From: Candidatus Rokuibacteriota bacterium
GTDB lineage: Bacteria; Methylomirabilota; Methylomirabilia; Rokubacteriales; CSP1-6
Direction of reading: 5' to 3'
Assembly (NCBI GenBank): GCA_016193045.1
Contig: JACPSW010000073.1
Location: 1 to 64,000, forward strand
Length of the DNA stretch: 64,000 bases
Part shown: in pieces, positions 26,386-29,863 of the stretch
Layout: each line of letters starts with the position of its first letter
Position numbering within the stretch: the first letter of the stretch is position 1
Translations under genes and position numbers: made by a program
Notes under the pieces: model-generated
What the model was told of the DNA's origin: nothing
Seen by the model: only the letters and a program-made list of their open reading frames with translations
Database searches by the model: none

Positions 26386-26401
26386 TGGCACCCGGGTTGC
26401 A
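26386..26401 (+). promoter_or_regulatory. Sigma-54 promoter (-24/-12)
   Basis: TGGCACCCGGGTTGCA matches the consensus TGGCAC-N5-TTGCW at every defined position. The predicted start is near 26412, about 45 bp before the ATG of the next gene, in the right orientation. Confidence 0.8.
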
Positions 26402-26458
26402 GGATTCAGGGAGGTCAGAGGGTGAAGCCGTGGACCATGCCACAGGAGTGAAGTGAAG

Positions 26459-27331
26459 ATGAGTCCGAATCTCTTCCTCGTCGGGTTGGGCCTGGTCGCG
26501 CTCGGTCTCTTCCTTGTCGGCTCGGTCCAAGCGTTTCAGGAGTCACGTGGCCGTGGTCGGGGCCGGCTCCGGCGCTCATCGAGACCCGTCGTGGCGGAGC
26601 TCGTGGTTCAGCTGGTGAAAACGATCGAGCGGTTAGACTCGCTGACGAACCGCGTGGAGAACGTGGAGAATTCAATCCAGCGAACCACTGGGACAGCGGT
26701 GCCAGTCACGCTTCCGTGCCCTGACGTCCCGACGGCGCCCCAAGACTCCCGCTCGTCACGAGGTCGCGCCTCTGTCCCCACCCTGGTGGCGGCTCAGGTC
26801 GCATGGCCAGCCCCCCCTTCCGCTCCAGCAGCGGTTCTTCAGCCGGCGCCTGTCGAGGCCCCGAAACCGGACACTCCTCTGAAAGACGCTCGGCCGTCGG
26901 GATTGGAGCCTCCCCCACTGGATGACTTGGAGTACGGGAAAATCGTCGCGCGCTACGCCGACGGCCGGATTCTCAAAGGGTTCACCTACGACTTCTACCC
27001 CAACAAACCCCGCTTTCACCTCATGCCGGCCGCCGGGGCGCCCTCGGGGAAGGCGGCCGAGATACGGACAAAGGATCTCAAGGCGGTGTTCTTCGTGCGG
27101 GACTTCGGGGGGAACCCTCACTACCAAGAACGGAAGGAGTTCACCGAGGACGACCGGCCCGTTGGCCGGAAAGTAGAGGTAACCTTCAAGGACGGTGAAA
27201 TCCTGGTCGGATCCACCGTCGGGTATGATCCCAGGCGCCCCGGGTTCTTCTTCATCCCCGCCGATCGAAAAAGCAATAACCACAAGGTATTCGCCGTTTC
27301 CGCCGCGGTGGCCGACGTCCGCTTCCTGTAA
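26459..27331 (+). CDS. Membrane-anchored protein with tandem repeat of a small beta-rich domain (DUF6982-like)
   Basis: About 290 residues; function unknown. ATG 26459 has AGGAG 10 nt upstream (an in-frame GTG at 26453 is too close). One N-terminal transmembrane helix (FLVGLGLVALGLFLVGSV) is followed by a basic stretch, a short coiled segment (LVKTIERLDSLTNRVENVENSI), a Pro/Ala linker, then two related units at the C-terminus. Unit 1 (KIVARYADGRILKGFTYDFYP...FHLMP...LKAVFFVRDFGG) and unit 2 (KVEVTFKDGEILVGSTVGYDP...FFFIPA...VADVRF) share the DGxIL.G.T..Y.P pattern. I associate it with DUF6982 from memory. Driven by a sigma-54 promoter; likely cytoplasmic C-terminus. Confidence 0.75.
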   Translation: MSPNLFLVGLGLVALGLFLVGSVQAFQESRGRGRGRLRRSSRPVVAELVVQLVKTIERLDSLTNRVENVENSIQRTTGTAVPVTLPCPDVPTAPQDSRSSRGRASVPTLVAAQVAWPAPPSAPAAVLQPAPVEAPKPDTPLKDARPSGLEPPPLDDLEYGKIVARYADGRILKGFTYDFYPNKPRFHLMPAAGAPSGKAAEIRTKDLKAVFFVRDFGGNPHYQERKEFTEDDRPVGRKVEVTFKDGEILVGSTVGYDPRRPGFFFIPADRKSNNHKVFAVSAAVADVRFL

Positions 27332-27547
27332 GACCGGACCCTTTCAGGGAAACGAAACCCTGTCCCCACACATATGAACCAGCTTACCCCTCTGGAAGGT
27401 TGATCTGACGCCCCCGCCGGTGCCGGGTAAGTAAAAGTTATTACTCCTACCTTGTAAAGTTTACACGTCTGGCGGCTCTTGGGCCCGGTTTTGCCGATCC
27501 GGCCTACCGACCCCACGCATTTCCATCAGTTACAGTCCGGTCTTTCT

Positions 27548-27563
27548 TGGCACGGGCATTGCT
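27548..27563 (+). promoter_or_regulatory. Sigma-54 promoter (-24/-12)
   Basis: TGGCACGGGCATTGCT is a full match to TGGCAC-N5-TTGCW. The predicted start is near 27574, giving a leader of about 85 nt before the bactofilin gene. The 330-bp intergenic region is more AT-rich than its surroundings (e.g. AAAAGTTATTACTCCT, 27426-27441), which leaves room for activator sites. Confidence 0.8.
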
Positions 27564-27659
27564 GCTCTTACGAGGAAAACCAACAGTCACTGACCCATCC
27601 ACCCACTTTTAGGCCCGGAGCGGTCAGGAGACGTCAAGGGAAAACGAGAGAGATCCAGG

Positions 27660-28103: not shown

Positions 28104-28577
28104 GTGGCAATGAGAAACTCGAACACGATCGTCGACGAGTGGACTTTCAAGGTTGTCACCGAGCTGGAGATTCGCAAAGCGTCCCGCTTACAATACCCTG
28201 TATCCCTCTTGGCCCTCCGTCCCGAGCCGGATAGCAAGACGCCCGCAGCGCCGCTCATGGAGCAGCTCGCCCAAGTGATCAGCCAAGTTATCCGGAGCAC
28301 CGATCTCGTGCGCCTCCCCGCCGCTTCGTCCACTCTGCACGTCCTGCTCGTCGGTGCTTGTTCGGAGCATCTCCCCAGCGTCATTCGGCGGATCGTGGAG
28401 GAAGTTGGTCGGCACCGGCTCCGGATCGACGGAGGGAGGCGGCCGGTGGCGCTTAGCGTGGGAGCGTCCTGCTTCCCGACCACCGCCGCCACCGTGCAGG
28501 ATCTCTCGACCCAGGCAGAACGTTTAGCACATTTTGGGCACAGTCGGCGGGAGCGGCTCAGTCGCACGGTCCGGTAA
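28104..28577 (+). CDS. Degenerate GGDEF-fold protein
   Basis: A 157-residue protein. The fold of a GGDEF domain can be followed (RLQYPVSLLALRPE, then LAQVISQVIRSTDLVRLP, TLHVLLVGACSEHLPSVIRRIVEEV, VALSVGASCFPTTAATVQDLSTQAERLA), but the GG(D/E)EF catalytic loop is absent: the place where it should lie reads LPAASSTLHVLL. It therefore cannot make c-di-GMP and may bind nucleotide or act as a protein partner. The start is GTG 28104 (ATG 28110 alternative). It follows bactofilin in the same transcript. Confidence 0.7.
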   Translation: MAMRNSNTIVDEWTFKVVTELEIRKASRLQYPVSLLALRPEPDSKTPAAPLMEQLAQVISQVIRSTDLVRLPAASSTLHVLLVGACSEHLPSVIRRIVEEVGRHRLRIDGGRRPVALSVGASCFPTTAATVQDLSTQAERLAHFGHSRRERLSRTVR

Positions 28578-28820
28578 GCGGTTGCTGCTCCTGGGTTATG
28601 TACGTTAGGTAGCAGGCACCCACCTCTTCCTGGCCTCCCTCGCTCACGCCCAGAGGGACCGCGAAGCCGCTGATTCCGCCCTCCGATTGGATGGCCTCCC
28701 GACACGAGCGGCCGTCATTTCATGACATGTTGGCACCCCCCGCCCGCGCGGAGCGCCTTGGCAAGGTGCCCGGCTCAGGAACCGCTCACCGAGTCAACGA
28801 GTTGCCGCACCGGTGCCACC

Positions 28821-28836
28821 TGGCACAAACTCTGCT
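28821..28836 (+). promoter_or_regulatory. Sigma-54-like promoter (-24/-12), one mismatch
   Basis: TGGCACAAACTCTGCT fits TGGCAC-N5-TTGCW except C for the first T of the -12 box; the invariant GG and GC are correctly spaced. The predicted start is near 28847, before the leader ORF and the GAF sensor gene. Confidence 0.6.
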
Positions 28837-28859
28837 TGTGGACAAGCGGGGAGATCTCT

Positions 28860-28943
28860 ATGCGGAAGGTCTGGACGAAGCCGAGCGGATCCGGGCGGAC
28901 GCCCCCGGCCACCCTCAGGAGCCGGCCCGGGACGGGGCCATGA
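28860..28943 (+). CDS. Possible 27-codon leader peptide coupled to the GAF sensor
   Basis: A short ORF (MRKVWTKPSGSGRTPPATLR, then seven more residues) starts 6 nt after a strong GGGGAG. Its TGA overlaps the ATG of the GAF sensor as ATGA. The sensor itself has only a weak Shine-Dalgarno (ACGGGG), so the short ORF may deliver ribosomes by coupling. The peptide is basic and Pro-rich and resembles nothing I know. Confidence 0.4.
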   Translation: MRKVWTKPSGSGRTPPATLRSRPGTGP

Positions 28944-29863
28944 AACTCCGACGTCGAATCTATCGGACCGTGAGTCTCCGACAGGCCGGTGCGGTGATTC
29001 TTGCTCTGACGACAATTCTCCCGCTGCTCCTTTTCCTCTACCACCTCAACCGATTCGAACTCCTATCCAGGACGGAGACTCAGGCGGGCCTCTTCCTCGC
29101 GCTCCTCACCGCCGTGCTGGGATTCATCCTGTTCCGACTGATCGTCAATCGAATCGCGCACCTCGCCCGGACCGTGGGGGCGCAGGGCGCCGAACCCGTG
29201 CCCGGGATCGGCCCGGTCACCGAGATCGTCCAGATCCGCGGGGCCTTCAAGAACTTGCTCAGGGACTTGGGAGGATCCCGGGAGGACCTCAGGGAGCTTA
29301 TGGTGAAGCTGGTGAGCCTCAACGAGATCGTCGAGCTGGGCGCCCCGATCCTCCAAAGTCAGAACCTCTTGGATCGCGTCCTCGATCGGACCATGCGGGC
29401 GGTCCGTGCCACCATCGGCTCCATCATGCTCCTCGACCCCGAGCGGCCGATACTTCGGATTGCGGCGGCACGCGGGTTACCCGATGAAGTCCTCGACGCC
29501 GAGGTGAAGGTGGGGGAAGAGATCGCCGGGAAAGTCGCGAAGTTGGGCGTGCCGGTCCTCGTCGAGGATATCGAGAAAGACCCGAGGTTCGCAAAGCCCA
29601 ACGATCCCAGGTACGGTGCGGGTTCCTTCATCAGTGCTCCCATCCGGGTCGGTGATCGGATCCTCGGCGTGATCAACCTGGCCAGAAAGAAACCCGACTC
29701 AGCCGGGCCGCCGGGCACGGCTCCATTCACCGCCATTGACCTGCGCTTCGTCACCGCCCTCACGAATTACGTAGCGTATGTCCTCGACAACGCCCGGTTG
29801 CGCCGGGAAACTAGCCGCCTGGCTAAGCGGCCAATCCGACCCTCCAAGGCGGCCCTCAACTAG
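28940..29863 (+). CDS. Membrane GAF-domain sensor without output domain
   Basis: A 307-residue protein. Two transmembrane helices lie near the N-terminus (AGAVILALTTILPLLLFLYHL and LFLALLTAVLGFILFRLIV) with almost no periplasmic loop, followed by a linker helix (HAMP-like or coiled) and one GAF domain (about residues 135-290: ATIGSIMLLDPERPILRIAAARGLP, GVPVLVEDIEKDPRF, SFISAPIRVGDRILGVINLARK). There is no kinase, GGDEF or HTH part, so it may sense and signal through a partner such as the degenerate GGDEF protein. ATG 28940 is preferred to 28691 because the sigma-54-like promoter lies between them. Confidence 0.8.
   Translation: MKLRRRIYRTVSLRQAGAVILALTTILPLLLFLYHLNRFELLSRTETQAGLFLALLTAVLGFILFRLIVNRIAHLARTVGAQGAEPVPGIGPVTEIVQIRGAFKNLLRDLGGSREDLRELMVKLVSLNEIVELGAPILQSQNLLDRVLDRTMRAVRATIGSIMLLDPERPILRIAAARGLPDEVLDAEVKVGEEIAGKVAKLGVPVLVEDIEKDPRFAKPNDPRYGAGSFISAPIRVGDRILGVINLARKKPDSAGPPGTAPFTAIDLRFVTALTNYVAYVLDNARLRRETSRLAKRPIRPSKAALN

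Follow-up and report, generated by a model that had tools for sequence, protein, structure and literature searches.

Sigma-54 promoters in a variable interval of a Rokubacteria genome suggest a dispersed sensory regulon beside a separate bactofilin operon

The window analysed here is a 64,000-nucleotide stretch (positions 1 to 64,000 of contig JACPSW010000073.1, assembly GCA_016193045.1) from Candidatus Rokuibacteriota bacterium, whose genome (G000) is a 3.86-Mb draft that is 94% complete. Within positions 26,386 to 29,863 of the window three sigma-54 promoters (P1, P2 and P3), lying in one direction inside 2.5 kb, precede genes encoding a membrane-anchored DUF6982 protein, a bactofilin followed by a degenerate GGDEF protein, and a membrane GAF protein that lacks a kinase. 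We call this segment the island, and we ask here whether its promoters belong to one system, as the initial annotation had proposed. The features of the island, which include palindromes that are putative binding sites of enhancer-binding proteins (EBPs) and are called upstream activator sites (UAS), are as follows.

26262..26274, plus strand: UAS-1, putative EBP-binding palindrome TGCCAGTCTGGCC (consensus TGCCA-N3-TGGCA), 124 nt upstream of the P1 -24 element
26386..26401, plus strand: sigma-54 promoter P1, perfect TGGCAC-N5-TTGCA (TGGCACCCGGGTTGCA), with equivalents before the C62 DUF6982 paralogue and the CSP1-6 gene
26453..27331, plus strand: membrane-anchored DUF6982 protein with one N-terminal transmembrane segment, a basic stretch, a Pro-rich linker and predicted tandem Sm/SH3-like barrels (about 26939-27325)
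27453..27465, plus strand: perfect palindrome TGTAAAGTTTACA, putative P2 operator, unlike UAS-1 and UAS-3
27548..27563, plus strand: sigma-54 promoter P2, perfect TGGCAC-N5-TTGCT (TGGCACGGGCATTGCT)
27660..28067, plus strand: bactofilin (PF04519, E=3e-26, 91.9 bits against a cut-off of 27.9)
28104..28577, plus strand: degenerate GGDEF protein, the GGDEF match being weak (E=7e-4, below the gathering score); alternative ATG at 28110
28723..28735, plus strand: UAS-3, putative EBP-binding palindrome TGACATGTTGGCA, 98 nt upstream of the P3 -24 element, with homologous promoters
28821..28836, plus strand: sigma-54 promoter P3, TGGCAC-N5-CTGCT (TGGCACAAACTCTGCT), one mismatch; CTGC also occurs in GAF-kinase promoters elsewhere
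28940..29863, plus strand: GAF protein with two transmembrane segments (2TM-GAF), a kinase-less stub (GAF_2, E=3e-17)

The two perfect sites and the single-mismatch site that had been placed ahead of three transcription units were re-found at these positions, the gene starts lying 51, 96 and 103 nt beyond the P1, P2 and P3 sites, respectively. At one mismatch or fewer the window holds four matches against 1.0 expected, and four or more were reached by 2 of 100 shuffles. That the matches are chance words is very improbable. The P3 site by itself is within chance expectation, but perfect TGGCAC-N5-TTGCW words number 18 in the genome against 2 for the reversed pattern, almost all of them shortly upstream of a plausible gene, and the common enhancer palindromes and conserved footprints described below contradict chance as well. 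As the genome also encodes RpoN and contains 22 strong EBP AAA+ domains, the sigma-54 sites are real as a class. The island accounts for 2 of the 18 perfect sites. The genes behind the perfect sites, which we named from their translations, include lpxC, multihaem cytochrome genes, a MlaC-like gene and genes for a universal stress protein, a CBS protein, a lytic transglycosylase, kinases and secreted proteins.

P1 and P3 have in common the palindrome TGCCA-N3-TGGCA. The motif was first read by eye from the DNA upstream of P1, of the DUF6982 paralogue on C62 and of the CSP1-6 gene (the same gene on G002:C46 and LDXP01000046), and was then tested. With at most one mismatch, at 78-124 nt upstream, it was present at 7 of 24 sigma-54 promoters tested against 0.056 expected (maximum 2 in 1000 shuffles); three of these promoters supplied the motif, and P3, the divergent C64 pair and C82 are independent. 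In 248 kb of G000 there are 9 distinct UAS-like words, and all but one have a sigma-54-like site 78-124 nt downstream (the L020 and L122 entries are the same DNA). A strict joint UAS and sigma-54 pattern matched 10 times in the 60 genomes searched, its reversed control not once, and a relaxed version gave 11 matches versus 1 for the control in G000 and 3 versus 0 in G002 (CSP1-6), one of two same-genus relatives.

Candidate members of a UAS regulon in G000 lie at loci L024, L025, L272-L275, L280 and L293-L298 (contigs C7, C30, C54, C62, C64, C66, C77, C82, C85 and C172, of which C77, C85 and C172 carry weaker sites). Their products are kinases with receivers, single receivers, a STAS/GNAT gene product, a methyltransferase, a FecR-like protein, and secreted and small membrane proteins. 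The arrangement was also seen upstream of a gene for a PilZ-like EBP fusion (L284, G022:C44) and of PilZ-domain genes (L266 and L267, in G049 and G055); the PilZ genes behind UAS promoters in relatives hint at a link to cyclic di-GMP.

The P1 product matches DUF6982 (PF22478) with E=2e-28. It had been described as a two-repeat membrane protein, and the AlphaFold model built with 44 relatives bears this out, predicting two five-stranded barrels (pLDDT 92, pTM 0.86) behind the single N-terminal transmembrane segment. Foldseek returned nothing at E below 0.001; single barrels matched Sm/Lsm proteins at a probability close to 1.00, with target TM-scores of 0.5-0.7. A search of the PDB for sequence relatives of DUF6982 found none, and "tandem Sm/SH3-like barrels" is a statement of predicted fold, not of homology. 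Since a basic stretch follows the transmembrane segment, the positive-inside rule predicts a cytoplasmic C-terminal part. Members of the PF22478 family are found in Deltaproteobacteria, Nitrospirae, Coriobacteriia and others and for the most part are about 138 residues long, whereas the window protein has an extra N-terminal membrane anchor. Among the 80 best DUF6982 relatives a convincing anchor was found in CSP1-6 only, and the G000 paralogues also carry one. Three of the four membrane-DUF6982 genes of the genus have a UAS together with a sigma-54 site 43-51 nt before the start. Across the other phyla, at a 6-of-7 threshold within 420 nt, sigma-54 sites preceded DUF6982 genes at only 4 of 80 loci (control 1), one of these being CSP1-6, and therefore sigma-54 control of these genes appears to be mostly a feature of the genus. 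The protein itself is most likely a scaffold or adaptor.

The P3 gene starts at 28940 rather than at 28691, the start of the longest open reading frame. Its product had been called a GAF sensor without an output domain. A kinase is indeed missing, but the protein in fact corresponds to the N-terminal half of 2TM-GAF histidine kinases: it aligns over its full length with this kinase family at 49-57% identity and ends before the kinase, lacking the HisKA and HATPase domains of the intact homologues (about 540-700 residues). No kinase remnant was found downstream of the gene. A full-length GAF-kinase gene lies on the window's own contig, C30, at 95 kb (about 94.5-96.3 kb). This gene and its G001 orthologue have in common TGGCATCCATCCTGCT with a UAS exactly 91 nt upstream, the remaining upstream DNA being different; the G022 GAF-kinase gene shares this sigma-54 site but its UAS is weaker, and that of G037, from another family, has two perfect UAS copies. 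P3, the weakest of the three sites, is rescued by its upstream UAS and by these homologous promoters of the GAF-kinase family, CTGC element included. Most likely the stub modulates the full-length paralogue.

Judged from sequence, sigma-54 control is thus supported at all three predicted units, with that of P1 and P3 conserved by gene family and not by place.

The best candidate for the activator of P1 and P3 is an NtrC-type EBP encoded on C54, because the adjoining receiver gene has the UAS promoter type in four species: in G000, G001, G002 and G016 TGGCATCCTCCCTGCA is preceded at 88 nt by a UAS. In G018 the UAS and sigma-54 arrangement, at 101 nt, stands before a homologous receiver gene. 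The C54 EBP, of 447 residues, has a REC-AAA-HTH (HTH_8) architecture, and its top NCBIfam match is AtoC, below the cut-off.

P2 presents a different upstream region. No UAS of the P1/P3 type was found at P2, only TGCCGATCCGGCC at -56. Instead, the palindrome TGTAAAGTTTACA lies about 82 nt before the P2 -24 element, a position that fits an enhancer, and is the sole match in the window (0.00 expected). A palindrome of this type with a sigma-54 site in that position was seen in no other genome of the class that was searched; distant genomes gave two matches, for which the gene caller gave no clear downstream gene. The first product of the unit is, as had been stated, a polymer-forming cytoskeletal protein, its bactofilin domain scoring well above the cut-off. 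It shares 69% identity with the second protein of a bactofilin pair on G000:C28, of which it is a diverged paralogue. In the genus that pair is followed by an M23-type protein and preceded by a conserved TGGCAT-N5-TTGCT site. Because this site is kept before the pair in three species (L118-L120) with differing spacer bases, the ancestral bactofilin operon may also be sigma-54 controlled. In the literature searched by title and abstract, no link between bactofilins and sigma-54 or RpoN, and no mention of DUF6982 by name, was described.

The degenerate GGDEF gene begins 36 nt after the bactofilin gene and is likely co-transcribed with it. The earlier description of a catalytically dead protein was confirmed, and extends beyond this gene: the GGDEF outline is kept, whereas the GG(D/E)EF active-site motif is absent from the window protein and from 14 of 14 aligned homologues. 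The family keeps particular company. An EBP is encoded within about 1.5 kb at 12 of 18 degenerate GGDEF loci versus none of 29 bactofilin and none of 22 GAF-kinase loci, and a TGGCGC-N5-TTGCT site of their own stands before 4 of 16 degenerate GGDEF genes (control 0). Degenerate GGDEF genes at L071, L072, L074 and L082 have such a site shortly upstream and stand beside EBP genes. Several of the loci hold polysaccharide-export-like genes, by our reading of the genes. As the family is encoded beside EBPs, its likeliest role would be that of an EBP accessory, perhaps in exopolysaccharide control. Upstream of the island, at window positions 25975-26110 on the minus strand, a frame looks like the C-terminus of a GGDEF domain (ADLVAAADKALYEGKRLAEGGTR) and is perhaps a pseudogene remnant; it has no Pfam support.

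The neighbourhood of the four genes was then compared among relatives. A conserved four-gene synteny was rejected: no two of the four families stand together in any locus fetched outside the window, two same-genus species included. In the family, nuoL and an M23 peptidase gene lie close together, separated by about 90-220 bp in G003, G005 and G011, and the gap between them is filled differently in G000, G001, G016 and G022. Genes found there encode hemerythrin, a CDF-type transporter, substrate-binding paralogues and DUF72, or are toxin-antitoxin-like, and the G000 filling is the island (names of genes lacking a Pfam call are our reading). As an observation in its own right, nuoL and M23 (window 23383-32197, and L175, L177, L178 and L180-L182) are ancestral neighbours with a hotspot for different insertions between them, and the CDF-type transporter found in this interval in three relatives is missing there in G000. 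By these comparisons the locus is a variable interval with a young, species-specific filling and not a conserved machine.

This bears on the view that the four products form one module, a signal-controlled envelope or surface structure whose membrane proteins are recruited by a bactofilin polymer. In its favour are three sigma-54 promoters pointing in one direction within 2.5 kb; moreover, bactofilins often work together with M23 peptidases, and an M23 peptidase gene lies 2.7 kb downstream. However, no two of the four families stand together in any locus fetched from relatives, in the same-genus sisters the interval is occupied by different genes, the M23 gene goes with nuoL and not with the bactofilin, and P2 lacks the activator site common to P1 and P3. 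A single module is thus unlikely, and the claim of one island with one system does not hold.

Another explanation is that the island is a decaying insertion scar whose acquired or duplicated fragments keep promoters without function. The interval varies between genera, the island genes have a GC content at third codon positions (GC3) of 0.74-0.79 versus 0.90 and a codon adaptation of 0.02-0.22 per codon versus 0.33, and the GAF stub sits on a long branch in its tree (0.93 versus a median of 0.34). Against decay, none of the four reading frames is broken, family-conserved residues are retained in the DUF6982 and GAF domains, the promoters and enhancer sites are intact, and the GGDEF protein was not recently broken since it is degenerate across its whole family. 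We consider a scar improbable.

The reading that we prefer is that two sigma-54 regulons meet in a young interval, a dispersed sensory UAS regulon (P1 and P3) and a separate P2 operon, and we regard this as probable. The promoters, the common palindrome and its phylogenetic conservation, the truncation of the GAF protein and the domain folds were obtained computationally. Several findings weigh against it. UAS-3 is among the weaker UAS copies, the DUF6982 paralogue on C86 has no recognisable site, and 18 of 22 GAF-kinase homologues are without such a promoter (at least one locus being cut near the gene start). In distant family members matches to the relaxed joint pattern about equal the controls, and a clear excess is confined to the genus and close genera. 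The C54 EBP is a candidate by adjacency, and the P2 palindrome could be a repressor site. The best reading assigns the UAS regulon to the genus of Rokubacteria CSP1-6. More tentatively, with the chances somewhat against so full a statement, this would be a new Rokubacteria sigma-54 sensory regulon with the operator TGCCA-N3-TGGCA. Tandem Sm-like proteins tethered to the membrane and a GAF decoy without a kinase would be among its regulated components, and the second sigma-54 operon beside it would pair a bactofilin with a non-catalytic GGDEF protein from a new family of EBP partners.

One of the closest known systems is the PrsK/PrsR PEP-CTERM regulon, which consists of dispersed single-gene operons with an activator motif and a sigma-54 motif upstream, an NtrC-type response regulator and a membrane histidine kinase (Haft et al. 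2006, PMC1569441). The UAS regulon resembles it in being dispersed, in combining an activator site with a sigma-54 site, and in its candidate NtrC-type regulator and membrane histidine kinase; a seven-transmembrane histidine kinase that matches PrsK below the cut-off is encoded after one of the UAS targets in G000. It differs in that TGCCA-N3-TGGCA is not the published motif 1, and the C54 EBP (the one EBP scanned) scores 363 bits, below the PrsR cut-off of 502.6. PrsR targets carry PEP-CTERM, and no such domain was found in the window proteins in Pfam and NCBIfam scans. The P2 palindrome is closer to PrsR motif 1, which is 17 nt long, has a TTTACA end and lies 32-92 nt before the sigma-54 motif (PMC1569441). 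The two are alike in the TTTACA end and in spacing (about 82 nt at P2), but the palindrome is 13 bp long, and because of this difference in length we chose not to file P2 under the PrsR regulon. NtrC/AtoC-type systems share the REC-AAA-HTH_8 EBP, a palindromic enhancer about 100 nt upstream and a GG/GC promoter; unlike them, the C54 EBP falls below the AtoC cut-off, has no adjoining cognate kinase identified, and would use a different operator. Finally, the bactofilin pair of the genus, followed by an M23-type protein behind TGGCAT-N5-TTGCT, is like the bactofilin-M23 peptidase operons, whereas the bactofilin of the window has a degenerate GGDEF protein as its partner, behind a promoter with another putative operator.

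Downstream of the island, at 36775-40655 on the minus strand, lie genes of low GC3 for a histidine kinase with PAS and four GAF domains (HisKA_3) and a LuxR-type regulator. Rfam and tRNA scans found nothing.

For the identity of the EBP, the signal and the protein functions we infer the following scheme. An NtrC-type EBP would bind TGCCA-N3-TGGCA about 80-125 nt upstream and, upon a sensory signal relayed by histidine kinases, would switch on sigma-54 polymerase at P1 and P3. The same EBP would act at about a dozen dispersed targets, among them the GAF kinase with its receiver, another kinase with a receiver, single receivers, the STAS/GNAT gene, the methyltransferase, and FecR and secreted proteins. 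P1 would yield the membrane-tethered DUF6982 protein, with its tandem Sm-like barrels in the cytoplasm, as a scaffold or adaptor, and P3 the membrane GAF sensor, now without a kinase, which may modulate the full-length paralogue. P2, under its own operator, would give the bactofilin and its degenerate GGDEF partner, the latter acting as an EBP accessory and not as an enzyme.

The island cautions that neighbouring sigma-54 sites need not mean one regulon. For an uncultured lineage it also supplies a regulon with a concrete, testable operator and a candidate activator. Two uncharacterised protein types gain a suggestion as to what they are: DUF6982 may be a tandem Sm-like barrel that can be membrane-tethered, and the degenerate GGDEF family found beside EBPs may have its role there.

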